Assembly (NCBI GenBank): GCA_029261295.1
Contig: JAJDBP010000012.1
Coordinates: forward strand, 1 to 64,000
Length of the DNA: 64,000 bases
Source of the DNA: Nitrospirales bacterium
GTDB taxonomy: Bacteria > Nitrospirota > Nitrospiria > Nitrospirales > UBA8639
Direction: 5' to 3'
The position numbers and the translations under genes are program-made. Shown here one piece after another: positions 5,151 through 44,477 of this stretch. The notes under the pieces were generated by a model that saw only the letters and a list, made by a program, of their open reading frames with translations, was not told the DNA's origin and made no database searches. The stretch's first letter is position 1. Each line of letters starts with the position of its first letter.

Positions 5151-6029
5151 TTACGGAAGGGAATTGGCGGGAGCGAACTGGTCAACCGCCACGAGTTCTC
5201 CAGGAATCTCTTCCTGGAGGGCGATCTCTTCTTCAGATCCTTTGGTGGGAGCAGAATCCACTATGGGCGGGGTCACTTTAGCCGTGGAATCTTCACGGGC
5301 ATCAGACGTCATGGAAAGGAGACTGTCATCCTGTTCATGACTTGGCTCGCTAAGAAACGCCACATGCGCCCGTCGGTTGTGTTCAAAACAATCTGGGGTT
5401 TGTTCCTGACAGACTGCTCCATCTTTTCCAAAGGATTGCACCTGGATCCGATCTTCAGGAATCCCCAGAGAGACTAAATAGGTTTTCACCGATTCTGCCC
5501 GCTTCAGCCCTAACACTCGATTGTAGGTATCAGGTCCCTGGGCATCGGTATGGCCGTCAATGTGTAGCGTGCCGGTCCATTCTCCTCCCTGAGCCTGGAC
5601 TTTGGTTTTAATCTGGTCTTTGGCTTGATTCGAGAGGACCCACAAATTGAAGCCAAAATGGACATCCATGTCTTCGGTTTCTTGTTGGGCTGTAGGAGAA
5701 GTGGACACCAACTGGAGAGATGGTTCTGTGCTAATCGGAGAGGAGGATTCGCTCGAGAGAGGGATCGCAGGAGAAGGAGTAGGATTGGCAAAAGCCTTGG
5801 ACATTTCAAAATTACTCACCTCCTTTGAGGCCTTTTGGGATGCCGTTGCCACTAAGGGCTCGTCTGCGGAATACATAAAGAGACCTCCGAGCCCAAGCGT
5901 TAAGACGATGAGTCCTCCCGCTAAGAGGGCGATTTCTTTGGTATCCGATTGTTCAACACCCGTCTGTAATGACGGTCGCAGTGGTTTGCCCGCTTCTGAA
6001 AGATTTGGGGTATTCGGTTTTTGATTCAT
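5151..6029 (-). CDS. OmpA family protein
   Basis: C-terminal OmpA-like domain (IDGHTDAQGPDTYNRVLGLKRAESVKTYL...FEHNRRAHVAF); N-terminal TM segment. Confidence 0.85.
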   Translation of the reverse strand: MNQKPNTPNLSEAGKPLRPSLQTGVEQSDTKEIALLAGGLIVLTLGLGGLFMYSADEPLVATASQKASKEVSNFEMSKAFANPTPSPAIPLSSESSSPISTEPSLQLVSTSPTAQQETEDMDVHFGFNLWVLSNQAKDQIKTKVQAQGGEWTGTLHIDGHTDAQGPDTYNRVLGLKRAESVKTYLVSLGIPEDRIQVQSFGKDGAVCQEQTPDCFEHNRRAHVAFLSEPSHEQDDSLLSMTSDAREDSTAKVTPPIVDSAPTKGSEEEIALQEEIPGELVAVDQFAPANSLP

Positions 6030-6450
6030 GCGTGTCTCCTTTGTTTAGCTGTCTGTTAACAATAGGGTTGGGGGATTCCATCTTTTTCTGATTTGTTGCC
6101 TCATCGTTCGCTTACAATGTCCTCACCTCCTTTCCGCGTGGCGTTATGAATGGAATGCACCTATCGCAAAGGACTTGCCAAACGTTGAAACTTAGAAAAT
6201 TCAATAAAATCAATGATTTGAAGAGGCACTGCAGTGGGGATTCGTGCGGGGATTGCGTGGATGCAAGCGGGGATGCGGGGACATTCACGCACTAAAATTG
6301 GATTGTTCTCCCCCGCCTTTGTAGGGCGGGGCTATGGGAGGTAGATTCTTGTAGTTGTTTTACTCTGGCTCGCTATGCTGGCAGTCTCTGGGATGTGGTT
6401 GGGGCTATGTGGCATTCATAACCGATCTCTCGAGCCTAAGTGGTCTTCTG

Positions 6451-6651
6451 TGATGCCGGGGTTCGTCCCGGCAGCCGACCCACTTTTGTTTGGGCAAAAG
6501 TGGGCAAAACCATGTTGGCCGTAGTGTGGCCCTTCGGGTTCCCTGTGCGGTTCGCCAACACCGGCGGCTCGCAAACTCGCTGCGCTCAAACAATGCGCAC
6601 CTTTTCTCCGGTGTTGGCTGCACTGCTCGGCCACACTACGAGGCCAGGGGA
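6451..6651 (+). repeat. Dispersed structured repeat, copy A
   Basis: Hairpins GCCGGG..CCCGGC (6455-6472) and CCCACTTTTG/CAAAAGTGGG (6479-6504); nested long stems GTAGTGTGGCC (6521-6531)/GGCCACACTAC (6629-6639) and GCCAACACCGG (6554-6564)/CCGGTGTTGGC (6608-6618); similar to 9739-9930 reversed. Confidence 0.85.
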
Positions 6652-6751
6652 ATCTGAAGAACCTGATTCCTTGATAACGGAGAATTAAATCGCAGCGACG
6701 GCCCGATGACTTTTCGAAGGGCTAAAACAGGCTCACTAGAGAGCCGCTTTA

Positions 6752-6786
6752 AGCCAGGGATTCAGCCGCGCCCAAGGCAGGGAGCC
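6752..6786 (+). repeat. Short repeat, copy 1 (GCCAGGGATTCAGCCGCGCCCAAGGCAGGGA)
   Basis: Near-identical to GCCAGGAACTCAGCCGCGCCCAAGGCAGGGA at about 7450-7480. Confidence 0.75.
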
Positions 6787-6976
6787 ATGGCAGTCTCGTC
6801 ATTCCTGCGTGTGGTTGGCAGGAATCCATCTTCTCTTCGTGATGGTCAATGGATGGATCTTAGTCATAGTTTCCAATGTGACGTTGCCAAGAAACCTATT
6901 TCCAGGCCAATACCTTGTCAGGGATGAAGGGGTCTGCTAATACAGATACAAGTGTCCTACAAATGGAGAAGTTCTC

Positions 6977-7252
6977 ATGAGTGCTAGTAACTTATTGCGC
7001 AACGTAAAGCCGGTTAATCTTCGCGAGGCACGAGGGCAACTGTCGAAATTGATCAGGTCGAAGGAACTTTCTGTCTTCCTCTCCAAGGGTAAACCAGTTT
7101 CGTTCCTTGTGCCCTATGAAGACATGTTGGACCTAGTTGAAACTCTGGATCAATTACAAGATAAAAAACTTCTTCAAGAAATTACACGAGCCCGGAAAGA
7201 ATATGCTCAGGGGAAAGCAGTTTCGGCAGAGCGTCTCCTGACAATTCCGTAA
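6977..7252 (+). CDS. Phd/YefM-like type II antitoxin (apparently orphan)
   Basis: VKPVNLREARGQLSKLIRS...LSKGKPVSFLVPYEDMLDLVETLDQLQD resembles the Phd/YefM fold. Confidence 0.7.
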   Translation: MSASNLLRNVKPVNLREARGQLSKLIRSKELSVFLSKGKPVSFLVPYEDMLDLVETLDQLQDKKLLQEITRARKEYAQGKAVSAERLLTIP

Positions 7253-7285
7253 AAAAATCCTACCGATTATCAAGAAACGATAGAT

Positions 7286-7440
7286 GCCGGGTTTCGGCCC
7301 GGCAGCCGAGGTCCTTTTGTTTCGGCAAAAGGACCCAAAACCACTTCTGCCCGGCCGCGGCTCCGGTGGGGTATCTTCGTCCCTGGACAAATCAAGATGG
7401 CGAATAACTCGCTCCGCTCAAACAGATTCGCCAAAGATTG
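7286..7440 (+). repeat. Dispersed structured repeat, copy C (degenerate 3' part)
   Basis: GCCGGGTTTCGGCCCGGC (7286-7303), GGTCCTTTTG (7310-7319)/CAAAAGGACC (7326-7335), then AACTCGCTCCGCTCAAACA. Confidence 0.75.
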
Positions 7441-7447
7441 GTATTTG

Positions 7448-7482
7448 GCCAGGAACTCAGCCGCGCCCAAGGCAGGGAATGT
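7448..7482 (+). repeat. Short repeat, copy 2
   Basis: GGCCAGGAACTCAGCCGCGCCCAAGGCAGGGA matches the copy near 6755. Confidence 0.75.
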
Positions 7483-7601
7483 CTACAGCTTTGTCTTTCT
7501 CTCTGGATGTTAGCTGGAATCCATTATCCCTTGACTTATTTCAGTTGAAAACAGAAGATCCACTGAGGAAACGCCAGTTGTTACTAAAGGACTTATAAAA
7601 G

Positions 7602-9503
7602 ATGGCCTACATCACAAAGTTTGAAATCGAGAATTTCAAAGGGATCGAAAGCCTTGAGCTAGAAGTCGCAGAAAAGCACAAGTGCCCAGTTGTTACTCTC
7701 GTCGGTCTCAATGAAAGTGGCAAAACGACAATTCTAGAAGCGATATCACATTTCGTCACGGCTGAAGGTACTATTTCGAAGGAACCGGGGAGAAAAAATG
7801 CAGCTAATCTTTTATCTTTGGTCCCGATAGCCAAAAAAGCAAATTTTTCTGGCATCATCGAAATTTCTGCCACCGTAATGATGGAGGATGCGGACAGGAG
7901 AAATGTTGAGAGCAACTTTGATAAAGCTGGTTACATAATCGATAGTGAACAATTACCGAAAAGTTTCACGATTACACGAAAATACTATTTTGCAGAGGGC
8001 GAATATAAAAAATTGACCAATATGTGGGATTTGGCATTCTTTGCGAAAAAAAAAGGTCGAGGGAAGATATTTCGGGAATATGTTCGGCCAAAGGAGGAAG
8101 AAATAAATGCAGGAACCCCTGACCTTTGGCAAAGTTGCGTGGAACTTATTAAAAAATCCTTGCCTACTATAGCTTACTTTCCAATGTTTTTAGTGGATGT
8201 ACCAGATAGAATCTATTTAACACAGTACGAAGATGAACATCCTAGCCAACGTTATTATCGAGAAGTTTTGCAAGATATCTTAGATAGTTTGGATGAGGAC
8301 CTAGACCTAGAGCAACACGTCGTAAAGCGGATTCGTAATTATCAGGAACAGGAGAGTAAGCCAAACTGGTTAACTCTTTTGTGGAGTCGACCCGAGAAAG
8401 GAATGATCGATTCAGTTGTTCAAAAGTTGTCATCAGCTATAAGTCGAGAGGTTATAGGAAGCTGGAAAAATATTTTCAATAGGCCTATTTCGGCAAAAAT
8501 GATCACTATTGATTGGAATGTCGATCTCGAAAAGGACTCTATCCCATACCTTACTTTTGGCATATCAGATGGTGAATCTAAATATGCACTACATGAGAGG
8601 TCATTAGGTTTCCGATGGTTTTTCCTTTTCTTGTTGTTTACACGTTTTAAGTGTGACAAGGAGCGTCCAACGCTCTTTCTATTTGACGAGCCCGCTGCCA
8701 ATTTGCATGCGCGAGCACAAACCGAGTTGTTGATGAGTTTCGGCAGAATAATTGAAAACCGAAATGGAATTATATATTCGACACATAGCGCACATATGAT
8801 CAACCCCCAATGGATACCCGCTGCTCAAATTGTCGAGAACACTGCCATTAATTATGACTCGGATGACGAAATGCTTAGCTTCTCAAGTCCTCCAACTTCC
8901 ATTACAGTGGTTCCCTATCGACGGTTTGCTTCTTTAAACCCTGATCGAAGCAGTTATTTTCAGCCTATCCTAGACAAGCTCGACCACATCTCCCCGAAAA
9001 TTTCTCCAGATGGTCCTGTTCTTGTTACTGAAGGGATCTCCGACTTTCACGCATTTTTGTTCTATTGTTCAGAACTCTTAACAATAAAAGGAATCTCCTT
9101 GCTGCCAGGACTTGGCGATACTCAACATGATAGCCAAATTGCTAATTTGATTGGAATGGGAAGAAACTTCATCGTTGTCCTTGACGATGACCAATCTGGG
9201 AACAGAGCGGCGAAAAGATATCGAGAGAAATGGCTGCTGGACTGTAATCATGTGGCAACATTGGGGGAACTGCATAGTGATGCAGCTGGGAAAAAACTGG
9301 AGACTATTCTTTCGAGCGAAACCCTCAGCGCTATATCAGCACATTTTTCACATACCGGGGCTCCAAAAAAGAAAGAAATCGGCCTGTACTTTTCAGAAGC
9401 AAACGCAGGCTTAATTCAAGACAAGAGTCCTAAGACTGCGGAAATGGTAAAAGATATCCTTAACGAAGCCGTGAAACGAATTTTAAATCAATCGACTAAG
9501 TGA
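7602..9503 (+). CDS. OLD-family ATP-dependent nuclease (AAA ATPase + TOPRIM)
   Basis: Walker A GLNESGKTT, Walker B LFLFDEPAANLHARAQ, TOPRIM-like VTEGISDFHAF and VVLDDDQSGNRAA. Confidence 0.85.
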   Translation: MAYITKFEIENFKGIESLELEVAEKHKCPVVTLVGLNESGKTTILEAISHFVTAEGTISKEPGRKNAANLLSLVPIAKKANFSGIIEISATVMMEDADRRNVESNFDKAGYIIDSEQLPKSFTITRKYYFAEGEYKKLTNMWDLAFFAKKKGRGKIFREYVRPKEEEINAGTPDLWQSCVELIKKSLPTIAYFPMFLVDVPDRIYLTQYEDEHPSQRYYREVLQDILDSLDEDLDLEQHVVKRIRNYQEQESKPNWLTLLWSRPEKGMIDSVVQKLSSAISREVIGSWKNIFNRPISAKMITIDWNVDLEKDSIPYLTFGISDGESKYALHERSLGFRWFFLFLLFTRFKCDKERPTLFLFDEPAANLHARAQTELLMSFGRIIENRNGIIYSTHSAHMINPQWIPAAQIVENTAINYDSDDEMLSFSSPPTSITVVPYRRFASLNPDRSSYFQPILDKLDHISPKISPDGPVLVTEGISDFHAFLFYCSELLTIKGISLLPGLGDTQHDSQIANLIGMGRNFIVVLDDDQSGNRAAKRYREKWLLDCNHVATLGELHSDAAGKKLETILSSETLSAISAHFSHTGAPKKKEIGLYFSEANAGLIQDKSPKTAEMVKDILNEAVKRILNQSTK

Positions 9504-9738
9504 AATTTTTGACAAAACTCCTTCTACTTCATGTCTGAATCGAGACCACTCAAAAAGGCAGAACAGTATAGAAAAAGAGGTGCCCTCTTCCTACCTCATT
9601 TTGCTCCCTTTCCCTAACCGACGCCTGCCATTCGGACCCATGGGCGGATGATTCTAAATCATTGGTGGGGCTTGTCTGCACGTAGCGAATTGATTTTCCA
9701 TAATACGTTGACGCCTTGTTTTTGCCTGTTCCCCTGGC

Positions 9739-9930
9739 CTGGTGGTGTGGCCGAGCAGTGCAGGCGACACCGGAGAAAAGGCGCGCATTGTTTGAGCGTA
9801 GCGAGTTTGCACGCCGCCGGTGTCGGCGAACCGCACAGGGGACCCGAAGGGCCACACTACGGTCAACATGGCTTTGACTACTTTGGCCGAAACCAAAGTC
9901 GTTCGGCTGCCGGGACGAACCCCGGCATTC
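9739..9930 (-). repeat. Dispersed structured repeat, copy B (inverted relative to A, C and D)
   Basis: Reverse complement reads GCCGGGGTTCGTCCCGGC...ACTTTGG..CCAAAGT...GTAGTGTGGCC...GCCGACACCGG...CCGGTGTCG...GGCCACACCAC. Confidence 0.85.
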
Positions 9931-10071
9931 AATCCATCCCTTCAAAATTAAACTGTCAGTCTCATTATTGTTAGGCTGCACAACCGAGTTTTTCTGGACG
10001 CGAGTTGTCTCTTTAGGGATAATCTAGGAATCGTTTACTTTAATACCAATATGAATTAATGGAGCATTCTT

Positions 10072-10617
10072 GTGGCTGAGCAATACCCAGAACTGAGTGA
10101 TGAGTTAAGTAAATTTATTCTTGAACAAAAAGTGTTTTTTGTGGCGACGGCTGCGCCTGATGGGCGAATTAATCTTTCGCCGAAGGGGAAAGATTCTCTG
10201 CGTGTGCTTGGTCCAAATGAGATTCTCTGGATGAACTTGACGGGAAGTGGGAACGAAACCGCGGCACATCTCTCCGAAGCCAATCGAATCACCATGATGT
10301 GGTGTGCGTTTGAAGGGCCACCTCAAATCCTTCGTGTTTATGGGTCGGCAAAGGTCTTTCATCCGAGAGATGCTCGTTGGGCAGAGTTTTCCGCTCAGAT
10401 CCCTTCCACCCTCGGAACGCGACAGTATTTCTTAGTGACCATTGATTTGGTCCATACTTCTTGCGGATATGCTGTGCCTTTTATGGACTATGTAAAAGAT
10501 CGTCCCGTGCTGACAAAGTGGGCTGAGAATAAGGGGGAAGAAGGGATTGCCGAATACTGGAAAGAAAAAAATCAGTTGAGCTTAGACGGAAAGCCAACCG
10601 GGATTTTTGGCTCCTAA
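10072..10617 (+). CDS. Pyridoxamine 5'-phosphate oxidase-like family protein
   Basis: GTG start; VFFVATAAPDGRINLSPKGKDSLRVLG...TGSGNETAAHL flavin-split-barrel signature. Confidence 0.85.
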   Translation: MAEQYPELSDELSKFILEQKVFFVATAAPDGRINLSPKGKDSLRVLGPNEILWMNLTGSGNETAAHLSEANRITMMWCAFEGPPQILRVYGSAKVFHPRDARWAEFSAQIPSTLGTRQYFLVTIDLVHTSCGYAVPFMDYVKDRPVLTKWAENKGEEGIAEYWKEKNQLSLDGKPTGIFGS

Positions 10618-10775
10618 CACGGCCTATATGGCGCTTGAATTGATCACTGTCGTGAGTCCATTGCGGCGTCAATTTGAAGCTTCATGTACACCTTCTTGAA
10701 AAAGTAAAAATTATTTGAGAATCTACGGACCTTTTCTTTTTTGAAATAATAATCTATTAAAAATGGGAGTACGGA

Positions 10776-11147: not shown

Positions 11148-11202
11148 GTCGAGGTGCATTGAGATTTTATGTTCGGTAGTAATTTTGTCTTGAGACTTAT
11201 CA

Positions 11203-11474
11203 GGTGAGCGACTACATTGAATATCTGAAAGAGGTTTTTAGTGAATTCCACTCTGTTGCCTTCTATGCTAGGGACGCGCCAGTACTTCTTAGGGGCGGTT
11301 GATCTTGTCCAGACCTCCCGCGGTTTTGTGGTGCCTGTGATGGATTTTGTGGAAGACCGTAAAGTGCTTTCGAAGTGGGGGGGGAATCGAGGCGAAGAAG
11401 GAATCGCAGAGTATTGCCAAAAGAGAAACCAACTGAGCATAGACGGGAAACCCACTGAGATTCTTGTCGTTTAA
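11203..11474 (+). pseudogene. Chimeric pseudogene: TfoX 5' end fused to PPOX-family 3' end
   Basis: GTG-SDYIEYLKEVFSEFHSVA matches the tfoX start at 12582; after a frame change, MLGTRQYFLGAVDLVQTSRGFVVPVMDFVEDRKVLSKW...GEEGIAEY matches the C-terminus of the 10072-10617 product. Confidence 0.85.
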
Positions 11475-12485: not shown

Positions 12486-12581
12486 GTGTAACTCGTGGTT
12501 CCAGTCGACCGTCCTCTTAGTCGATTAGAACGGTATCTGGGTTGGGAGCGTTAATCCTAATAAAGTATTCTGAGCAATCAT

Positions 12582-12920
12582 ATGAGCGAGTACGTTGAAT
12601 ATTTGAAGGAGGTTTTTAGTGAATTCGGCTCTGTGGCACCTCGCCGGATGTTTGGAGGGTATGGAATTTTTCATAAAGGGTTGATGCTCGGTTTGGTTGC
12701 AGATGATGTGCTGTATCTGAAAGCTGACGAATCGATAGCTCCGCATTTTACTGAGCGGGAATTAGAACAATTCAGTTACGAGAAAAATGGGAAAGCGTTT
12801 AAGATGTCCTACTACATGGCACCGGAAGATATTTTCGACGATTTAGAAGAAGCGAAGATTTGGGCCGAGCGATCTTATGCCGCAGCGGTTCGTTCCAGTA
12901 AACCCAAGAAAAAGAAATGA
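12582..12920 (+). CDS. TfoX/Sxy N-terminal domain protein
   Basis: MSEYVEYLKEVFSEFGSVAPRRMFGGYGIFHKGLMLGLVADDVLYLKAD. Confidence 0.88.
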   Translation: MSEYVEYLKEVFSEFGSVAPRRMFGGYGIFHKGLMLGLVADDVLYLKADESIAPHFTERELEQFSYEKNGKAFKMSYYMAPEDIFDDLEEAKIWAERSYAAAVRSSKPKKKK

Positions 12921-12932
12921 AGATATTTAGAA

Positions 12933-13036
12933 GCCGGGATTCGGCCCGGCAGCCGAGGTCCTTTGGTTTCGGCAAAAGTAGTCAAAACCATGTTGGCCGT
13001 ACCGGGGCATGACCGGACGGCAGGCGTCGGTTAATT
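12933..13036 (+). repeat. Dispersed structured repeat, copy D (internally deleted)
   Basis: GCCGGGATTCGGCCCGGCAGCCGAGGTCCTTTGGTTTCGGCAAAAGTAGTCAAAACCATGTTGGCCGTA, then GGCAGGCGTCGGTTA, which also flanks copy B (reverse complement near 9614-9632). Confidence 0.75.
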
Positions 13037-38997: not shown

Positions 38998-40824
38998 ATG
39001 GGAAAAACGACAACATTGGTAGAGGTGATTCAGCGACTGATTGAAGTGGGTCGTCCCAAGGGTCATATCACCTTGAAGGATTTGACGAATGTATTGCCTG
39101 CCGATCAAATCACCTCGGAACAATTACATGCGATTTTGGGTGCCTTAACTGAAGCGAGCATCCAGGTAATTGATCCTTCCAAACGGACTGTGTTGCAGTT
39201 GGCTTCATTGAAGAAAGGTGCGGGTGTTGAGGATTCAGAAGATGGGGAGGAGGAGACTGATTCCTCTTTAGACATTGATTTAACTCCTGGAGAGCCCACG
39301 CGTATTGATGACCCAGTTCGCTTGTACTTAAAGGAAATGGGACGTGTTCCCCTCTTAACTCGTGAAGGCGAAATTGAATTAGCTAAACATATTGAAGAAG
39401 GAAAGCGAGATCTCGCCTGCTCAGTCTATGGGATGCCTGTCAATATTCAACATCTTGAGTCACTTCATGAACAATTGAAACTTGAAGAAATTCGAGTGCG
39501 AGATATTGTGTTATTGCAAGAAACCTTAGAAGACGATGATGCTGCAGATGAAGACGCTGCGCCGAGTGATCCTGAGGATGAAGAGCTTCGACTTCGAACG
39601 CTTGAGGGTTTGAGTACGGTTCGGAAACTCGGGCGAAATCTTCTTTCTCTCTATATTCAAAATCGAGAAGGGGGAACGGTTAAAGCCAAACAAGCTCATA
39701 TTGATAAACGATTAAAGACCGTAATCGACAACTATGTTGATCAAATTGAGTCATTAAATCTGCATCAACGGGTGAAAGATGCCATGTTAATGCGGATAAA
39801 AGGTTTAGGCCAAGACATTCGAGCTGCTGATCTGGTGATTACGCGAAACACCAAGAAGTTAGGCTATGCGGGGCAGGATGGCATTCAGGTTATTGGGAAG
39901 AAGCCAAAAGTTGTGAGCAAAGCATCTAGCAGTCGAAGAAAGACTCAATTGGCTCCTGAAGAAATTGAACGCCTCAAGAAAGAGACTCAGGCTGCCAAGG
40001 AAGTCATTTCCCACATTCAAGATGATGTGCTTGCCATGCCAATGGAAGAGTTTAAAGCCGCATTGGTTATTTTAGCGAATGCGGAAGAAAAGGTGAAACG
40101 AGGCAAGGCCAAATTAATTGAAGCCAATTTGCGCTTAGTCGTCAGTATTGCTCGAAAATATACGAATCGAGGTCTTCAATTTATAGATTTAATTCAAGAG
40201 GGTAATATTGGATTAATGCGTGCAGTGGATAAGTTTGAGTATCAACGGGGGTATAAATTCAGCACCTATGCGACCTGGTGGATTCGGCAGGGTGTCACTC
40301 GTGCGATTGCGGATCAAGCGAGAACTATTCGGATTCCTGTGCATATGATTGAAGCCAATACCAAGCTTGCACGAACTGCTCGACAATTAGTTCAACAATT
40401 AGGACGGGAGCCGACTCCCGAAGAAATTGCTGAACGTATGGGATTAACCCCGGAAAAAGTACGCATGATGTTGGATATTTCTAAGGGTACTATTTCTTTG
40501 GAAACCCCAATTGGGGAAAAGGAAGATAGTCAATTAGGGGATTTGATTGAAGATAAAAATGCCGTGTCTCCGATGGATGCGGCCAATCGATATGATTTGC
40601 AACGTCAAATTGCCAATGCTTTAGGGGTGTTAACGCCACGAGAAGAGACGGTTATCCGGAAACGTTTTGGGATTGGTGACAGCACGGATCATACCTTAGA
40701 AGAAATTGGACAAGATTTTGATGTGACGCGTGAACGGATTCGTCAGATTGAAGCGAAAGCTTTGAAAAAGCTGCGCCATCCAAGTTGTAGTCATAAACTC
40801 CGGAGTTTAGTTGATCATCTTTGA
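38998..40824 (+). CDS. rpoD: RNA polymerase sigma factor RpoD-like
   Basis: Region 2 [55 protein letters not shown]; region 4 at the C-terminus; AAGGAG upstream of ATG 38998. Confidence 0.9.
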
Positions 40825-43226: not shown

Positions 43227-44477
43227 ATGACCACACTTCATGCAATTCCGACCTTACCTCAGACCCAGAAGGATCATGCACCATATCTCCAGAAACGTCG
43301 CGTGATAAAACGAGCGGCCTCTTTGTCTCGAACGTCTTCTAAGAAAAAAAATGCGAGTTGGGAGGAAGGCGACCCAGGTAAACAATCGGTAGAGCCGGCT
43401 TCAGTGAATTTAGAGTCCTTGTATTTCAAAGGATTCCGTTCACGCCCCCTGTTGGCTGCTGATGAGGAACTGAAGTTGGGAATACGTTTGTATGAGGGCA
43501 CCGTCCAACTTCGAACATTTCTCGAGCAGTCCTTGGTCTTAGCTGAAAAGTTGAAAAAATATCCTGAAGGTGAGTTGGTGACTGAACAATTGCGAAAGTT
43601 TATAGATTTGAAAGGCTATTCTTCACCGGTAATCGATGAATGCCTTAAATGTGTCGGGATCTTGGAGGGTCTCGCTGGCGCGAAAGGAAAAGCTGGGCAA
43701 AAAATGATCCAGAAAGCTGCAGCATTAAGTTGTTCAATCCAGAGCGTTCGATTGGAAATTGAAGAGCCAAAGGATAAATTAGTTCAACGCAATCTTCGTC
43801 TTGTCGTGAACGTGGCAAAGCGATATCTGGGACGAGGGCTGAACTTTTTAGACCTGGTTCAAGAAGGCAATATTGGCTTAATGAAAGGTGCCGAACGCTT
43901 TGATCATACTCGGGGGTTTAAGTTCAGCACCTATGCCACCTGGTGGATCCGACAAGGGATTACGCGGGCGATTGCAGATCAGAGCCGAACCATCCGAGTC
44001 CCGGTTCATACCAATGAAGCCTCGACGAAAATTGCAAAAACAGCGCAACGACTTGCGCAACAATATGACCGAGAGCCGACCTTTGAAGAAATTGGACACG
44101 TGTTAGATATGACGAGTGAGCGGGTGAAAGAAACATTAGAGGCTTTTCAGGAACCTATTTCATTGGATGCTCCATCGGTGGATGGCGAAACGGAATTAGG
44201 GGAGTTGCTCCCGGATTTGGACGGGGTTTCACCTGATGAGGAGATTTCCCGTAAATCCGATGCCCAATGGTTGGCTAAAATTTTTCAAGTACTCAATCCG
44301 CGTGAAGAACAAGTTGTTCGTTTGAGATTTGGGATCGGAGGGGATGAGCCGTGGACCCTGGAACAAGTAGGCCGATCCATGTCGGTGACCCGCGAACGGA
44401 TTCGCCAAATTGAAGTGGTGGCTTTAAATAAACTGAAAGACTCCCATGTTAAGGCGATGCTAGCTGAGATAAAATAA
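43227..44477 (+). CDS. Sigma-70 family RNA polymerase sigma factor (RpoD/RpoS-like)
   Basis: [56 protein letters not shown]; region 4 present. Confidence 0.9.
   Translation: MTTLHAIPTLPQTQKDHAPYLQKRRVIKRAASLSRTSSKKKNASWEEGDPGKQSVEPASVNLESLYFKGFRSRPLLAADEELKLGIRLYEGTVQLRTFLEQSLVLAEKLKKYPEGELVTEQLRKFIDLKGYSSPVIDECLKCVGILEGLAGAKGKAGQKMIQKAAALSCSIQSVRLEIEEPKDKLVQRNLRLVVNVAKRYLGRGLNFLDLVQEGNIGLMKGAERFDHTRGFKFSTYATWWIRQGITRAIADQSRTIRVPVHTNEASTKIAKTAQRLAQQYDREPTFEEIGHVLDMTSERVKETLEAFQEPISLDAPSVDGETELGELLPDLDGVSPDEEISRKSDAQWLAKIFQVLNPREEQVVRLRFGIGGDEPWTLEQVGRSMSVTRERIRQIEVVALNKLKDSHVKAMLAEIK

Follow-up and report, generated by a model that had tools for sequence, protein, structure and literature searches.

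A double-hairpin repeat at the edges of OLD nuclease and toxin-antitoxin gene cassettes in a Nitrospirales bacterium and its congeners

A question still unanswered is by what route small defence and toxin-antitoxin genes come and go from chromosomes when no plasmid, phage or integron carries them. It is posed in concrete form by a Nitrospirales bacterium (GCA_029261295.1), in which an OLD-family nuclease gene and an antitoxin gene that has lost its toxin lie between inverted copies of a repeat. The locus sits in a 64,000-nt stretch of contig JAJDBP010000012.1 (positions 1 to 64,000), here called the window. The window's own 4.06-Mb genome (G000) was compared with those of congeners (labelled G005 to G019), with one genome per species, which makes every comparison one between species only. 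A preliminary description of the window had proposed that the segment between the repeats could have moved as a cassette or could flip.

Layout of the locus

The large inverted pair named in that description is confirmed. Repeat copies A (6453-6652, plus strand) and B (9729-9928, minus strand) are both full-length A-type copies of 200 nt, 91% complementary and 3,076 nt apart, with a longest exact match of 26 nt. The head of A (about 6452-6514) is followed by a long-stem tail, and the head of B (about 9867-9929) faces outward. The pair encloses the three features attributed to it: a Phd/YefM-like antitoxin gene (6977-7252, plus), a third repeat, copy C (7283-7345, plus), and the gene for a 633-aa OLD-family ABC-ATPase/TOPRIM nuclease (7602-9503, plus). 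The antitoxin call is weak but credible, its Phd_YefM match (E=0.0025) falling under the Pfam gathering score. Copy C is direct to A and related to it over the first 63 nt or so, which form the double-hairpin head; its tail (7346-7535, plus) is of another type, common to G005 and G009. A leftover of a C-type tail 3' of A (6721-6783, plus; 76% to 7416-7478) is a sign of earlier recombination. A fourth head of the family follows a TfoX_N gene (12930-12992, plus); all four copies have the 63-nt two-hairpin head in common, and their tails differ.

On the left the locus is bordered by a gene for an OmpA-family protein (5151-6029, minus; Pfam OmpA, E=2.7e-12), syntenic in congeners, and on the right by a PNPOx-like gene (10072-10617, plus; Pfam PNPOx_N, E=2.2e-11) that is 78-86% identical in congeners. 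The window also holds a chimeric pseudogene between globin and TfoX genes (11180-11474), in which the beginning of the TfoX_N gene (resembling 12558-12637) is fused to a PNPOx-like C-terminal part (resembling 10400-10600). Farther along, 40234-40737 and 43899-44399 form a tandem duplication that has diverged (71% over 196 nt, with a 45-nt motif present three times) and resembles sigma-factor-type coding sequence.

The repeat family

Copies A, B and C are members of a genome-wide repeat family, a point absent from the preliminary description. BLAST finds 40 matches to copy A in the 4.06-Mb genome, and the repeats far exceed chance expectation. The repeat is a mosaic in which a 63-nt two-hairpin head (TGCCGGG..CCCGGCA, then GGTCCTTTTG..CAAAAGGACC) is followed by one of several tails. 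In the second stem of the head 94% of cells are paired, against 84% in shuffles, and 6 of the 10 pairs show double, compensatory changes on both sides. The single-strand fold of copy A has a z of -5.

A covariance model of the head counts 44 in G000 and, in four well-assembled congeners, 56 (G009), 80 (G010), 91 (G019) and 99 (G014). The count for G000 is probably too low, because several of its contigs (C1, C10, C30, C31 and C33) end at or near repeat copies. The head is found in all 20 congeners sampled and, across 118 relatives and 246 genomes from the phylum, is restricted to this taxonomic family, in which its occurrence is patchy (0-99 copies).

Familiar identities for such a repeat were considered and rejected. 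Against a known Rfam RNA, a search at thresholds up to E=1 gave no match; against a bidirectional terminator, terminator- or promoter-like sites are no commoner in it than in shuffles. Spread by plasmids or phages was likewise set aside: the plasmid search gave no match, the phage search gave two weak 38-nt matches, both in Acinetobacter phage contigs, and viral contigs gave none. No published description of the repeat was found in the open-access literature.

Cassettes bracketed by the repeat

Repeat copies are intergenic and many are solitary. Away from the locus in the window, heads occur in clusters, and the one- or two-gene cassettes that they bracket are rich in toxin-antitoxin genes. 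Gaps of less than 6 kb between heads number 57 in G019 (10.1 expected) and 51 in G010 (7.1 expected), and 90 of 108 neighbouring heads lie on the same strand. A Pfam tally of 145 bracketed proteins, in which orthologous cassettes are counted more than once, is led by DUF433 and ParE (7 each), Phd/YefM and DUF2283 (5 each), Unstab_antitox (4), CopG (CopG_antitoxin), VapB and MNT (3 each), and HepT and BrnT (2 each); the congener regions were picked by clustered heads, not by cargo. Among 104 control genes located farther than 1.5 kb from any head, no toxin-antitoxin family is among the 25 commonest families (singletons unlisted). Bracketed genes are also shorter (median 135 vs 269 aa), and restriction, TIR and GmrSD genes and a second OLD-like gene are bracketed as well.

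Two further loci illustrate the cargo. A second array in G000 (C10, 108000-127617; L110) places each cassette between heads and carries MNT with DUF1456, a type ISP restriction enzyme, ParE with its antitoxin, and VapB. Another OLD-like ATPase gene lies between heads elsewhere in G009 (L157:3547-5412); the G000 counterpart of that locus (L109) has a 757-aa TIR-WD40 protein instead.

One slot in eight species

The OmpA-like and PNPOx-like genes enclose a hotspot. In eight species its borders are kept, heads stand at its edges, outward-facing in every species checked, and the innermost cargoes are unrelated: all eight differ and none occurs in the hotspot of another species. With heads written as forward or reverse, G000 reads forward head, Phd, forward head, OLD, reverse head. 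A single gene between a forward and a reverse head is found in G009 (DUF4062) and G005 (UPF0489). In G006 and G007 the borders lie partly on separate contigs, two contigs each: G006 has phd-parE, forward head, TIR, forward head, two genes, reverse head, and G007 has DUF2283 with its partner plus phd and a forward head, then forward head, 280-aa gene, reverse head. The remaining three are arranged as follows: G010 runs forward head, two genes, two reverse heads, BrnT/BrnA, two reverse heads; G017 forward head, 225-aa gene, reverse head, BrnT/BrnA, reverse head, DUF2283 pair, two reverse heads; and G019 forward head, dehydrogenase, forward head, 183-aa gene, reverse head, Phd, BrnA, two reverse heads, IS110, reverse head.

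Copy B has its orthologue at the same place in G009, to which B and its flank align unbroken around a different cargo, and the left head is resident in relatives as well; it is the contents that change. The proposal of a mobile cassette holds in part. The cargo is accessory, has repeat edges and is replaced by other cargo in congeners, but nothing indicates that the block from A to B moved as a whole. Comparison of the species shows that borders and outward heads are kept and cargo is replaced, as in an exchangeable slot. Comparing the locus in relatives, as had been suggested, reveals that copies of this repeat enclose other cargo there, and gives no sign of inversion.

The antitoxin gene offers the closest view of one such replacement. 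An intact phd-parE pair is present in G006. The gene was correctly described as an orphan antitoxin in the window, where the ParE toxin gene is absent from its side because parE is truncated at head C; about 30 nt of it are left (7253-7282, plus). A six-species alignment shows this remnant ending in ACGATA directly before GATGCCGGG, the start of the head, and parE is cut at this same base in G000, G007, G010, G017 and G019. Beyond the head there are three tail types and, where the contig continues (that of G007 ends at the junction), different cargoes. A shared parE junction 5' with swapped tail and cargo 3' locates exchange within the repeat, with the switch in the head. As the alignment reads, one ancestral parE junction was kept 5' and everything 3' of the switch replaced.

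Units and switch points

Other comparisons show whole units. In G005 the left flank of A runs directly into the head and tail of C, with the switch in hairpin 1, which makes A plus Phd one extra unit in G000. Relative to G019, G010 has a single extra unit of repeat plus 241-aa gene (1,627 nt), in register. In the large opposed arrays of these two species (the arrays are about 90% identical), a block of head plus 312-aa gene begins at the head and precedes katG in one species but follows it in the other; two further cassettes stand in swapped order. Taken together, the comparisons show that cassettes come and go in register with the repeat and that sequence switches fall inside it.

Of three mapped switch points, two lie in hairpin 1 and one further in, between about +25 and +200; cases 3, a and c were left out of the mapping, their flanks being non-alignable. 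A fixed crossover nucleotide was considered and dropped, since three cases are too few to claim one.

The arrays themselves (G010 C1, 1.400-1.450 Mb; G019 C1, 3.428-3.465 Mb) each consist of two opposed rows of heads, 10 and 14 heads in G010, around a 10-15 kb core that in G010 holds type I restriction and McrBC-like genes; cassette order differs between the two species.

How the cassettes may be exchanged

The reading we favour, with moderate confidence, is that A, B and C are dispersed, family-specific repeats edging an exchangeable slot, that Phd and OLD are separate cassettes, and that exchange proceeds by homologous recombination. Resident repeats would recombine with copies on incoming DNA or elsewhere in the chromosome, heads and tails would serve as portable homology arms, and cargo (toxin-antitoxin, restriction and OLD-, TIR- or DUF4062-type genes) would be retained by addiction or phage selection. 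All five genomes tested carry a ComEC-type gene for DNA uptake; its family, PF03772, is common, also matches in E. coli and is no proof of competence. Three observations count against homologous recombination. Perfect identity between heads of different types spans only 12-13 nt (12 nt for A with C), short for RecA-type recombination; the paired changes in hairpin 2 are not needed under plain homology; and, of the three switches that could be resolved, two are located in hairpin 1.

Poor identity between head types combined with conserved stems leaves room for a structure-specific enzyme. A dedicated putative recombinase or transposase might recognise the hairpins of the head in their folded, single-stranded form and insert or excise units of head, tail and gene, an integron-like system without a recognised integrase. 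We regard this as an alternative of low probability. The compensatory changes, the start of units at the 5' end of the head, the long same-orientation arrays (those 90 of 108 neighbours) and the low identity between head types would all be expected of it, but the switch points do not share one position and the obvious enzymes do not fit. The integron integrase model TIGR02249 has no match above cut-off in five genomes, a Y1 transposase is absent from G019 despite its 91 heads, and the two full-length Y1 genes of G000 have no heads nearby. That the head is, specifically, the recognition site of a putative structure-specific recombinase shuffling such cassettes at many slots, in a non-integron system specialised in toxin-antitoxin and anti-phage genes and confined to one bacterial family, is a speculative proposal that we consider unlikely.

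The repeats might instead be passive MITE- or REP-like insertions in dispensable DNA, coinciding with cassette edges since both avoid essential sequence. Their intergenic and often solitary placement, the REP-like structure of the head and the IS110 element in the G019 hotspot suit this explanation; it is nevertheless improbable, as repeat-plus-gene units are gained and lost in register, outward heads mark the hotspot in all species checked, and the common parE junction with swapped tails already strains it.

A composite transposon, in which A and B are the terminal inverted repeats of a block (A, Phd, C, OLD and B) that arrived in one piece, would explain the inverted, outward-headed and 91% alike arms and the low GC of the OLD gene. 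It is very unlikely, given that B and its flank align unbroken to G009 around other cargo, the left head is also resident, the A-B segment contains no transposase and copy C bears the ancestral parE junction; a MITE-flanked unit falls by the same observation that the arms stay in relatives and the contents change.

Recombination of A with B that flips the Phd-OLD segment as a switch, the other half of the original proposal, is suggested by geometry alone (inverted arms of 200 nt that match exactly over at most 26 nt) and is scarcely credible, since no adjacent invertase gene is seen and the relatives contradict it: Phd in four species, BrnT/BrnA in three and DUF2283 with its partner in two keep the same orientation.

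A structured repeat at cassette edges, at many loci and throughout a genus, is a handle by which the cassette pool can be read off. The repeat could also guide a search of the innermost slots for new defence genes and help to distinguish RecA-based recombination from recombination by a dedicated enzyme.

The OLD nuclease

The innermost cargo in the window fits the class 1 OLD nucleases by its predicted motifs. The ABC ATPase motifs are present (Walker A/B, H loop), with GLNESGKTT at residue 35 and LFLFDEPAANLH at 358, followed by TEGISDF at 476 and VVLDDDQSG at 525. The TOPRIM residues (TEGISD 476, DDD 528-530, KLETIL 564) are assigned by motif only, the last glutamate by eye. Pfam AAA_15 matches at E=4e-24, Toprim_2 falls under its cut-off, and PADLOC reports matches to AriA, Old, PtuA and GajA models. 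A PARIS (AriA-AriB) or Gabija (GajA-GajB) system was rejected, as no AriB or GajB partner ORF is found at 5800-10700. Like class 1 enzymes such as Thermus scotoductus OLD and P2 OLD, the protein has an N-terminal ABC ATPase, a C-terminal TOPRIM with E-x3-D and D-rich motifs, and no UvrD-like helicase neighbour (PMC7049728); no UvrD/Rep helicase gene lies directly downstream, the next gene being the PNPOx-like one. Unlike those references it is distant, with no match among PDB sequences at E 0.01.

The gene has a GC content of 41%, against 46% for the window. No close relative was found in 98 relatives and none in viral contigs. Its nearest named relative is 32% identical and belongs to a Patescibacteria type I restriction locus, where it sits between hsdM and hsdS (L083:5995-7803). 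Single-sequence structure prediction reached a pLDDT of 34. A role as a stand-alone anti-phage nuclease, suggested by its family, is plausible.

Comparison with known systems

Three known systems resemble the repeat and its cassettes in part. Like REP/BIME elements with their RAYT transposases, the repeats are dispersed, intergenic, modular palindromes with compensatory stem changes (PMC2817692). Unlike REP/BIME, the heads are longer and, in alignments, have no GT(A/G)G tag. A REP/RAYT system was rejected because the Y1 genes are not flanked by heads (L119-L124) and G019 has none.

Integron attC arrays are similar in having folded sites between one- or two-gene cassettes, long arrays, a richness in toxin-antitoxin genes and reshuffling. 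The present cassettes differ in occupying several separate loci, with both repeat orientations and no single attI-like platform seen, and an integron was rejected on the search for IntI-type tyrosine recombinases already described.

A parallel in layout is Neisseria meningitidis, where minimal mobile elements (MMEs) are sites at which strains carry different whole-gene cassettes between one pair of conserved genes, and where the small palindromic repeats of NIME/dRS3 arrays are thought to promote recombination with acquired DNA (PMC3898611). The eight species compared here likewise differ in the whole-gene cassettes that one pair of conserved genes encloses. Unlike in Neisseria, the cassettes are edged by the repeat itself, a double hairpin of 63 nt whose tails can be exchanged, the cargo consists mostly of toxin-antitoxin and defence genes, and the comparison runs across species rather than strains.
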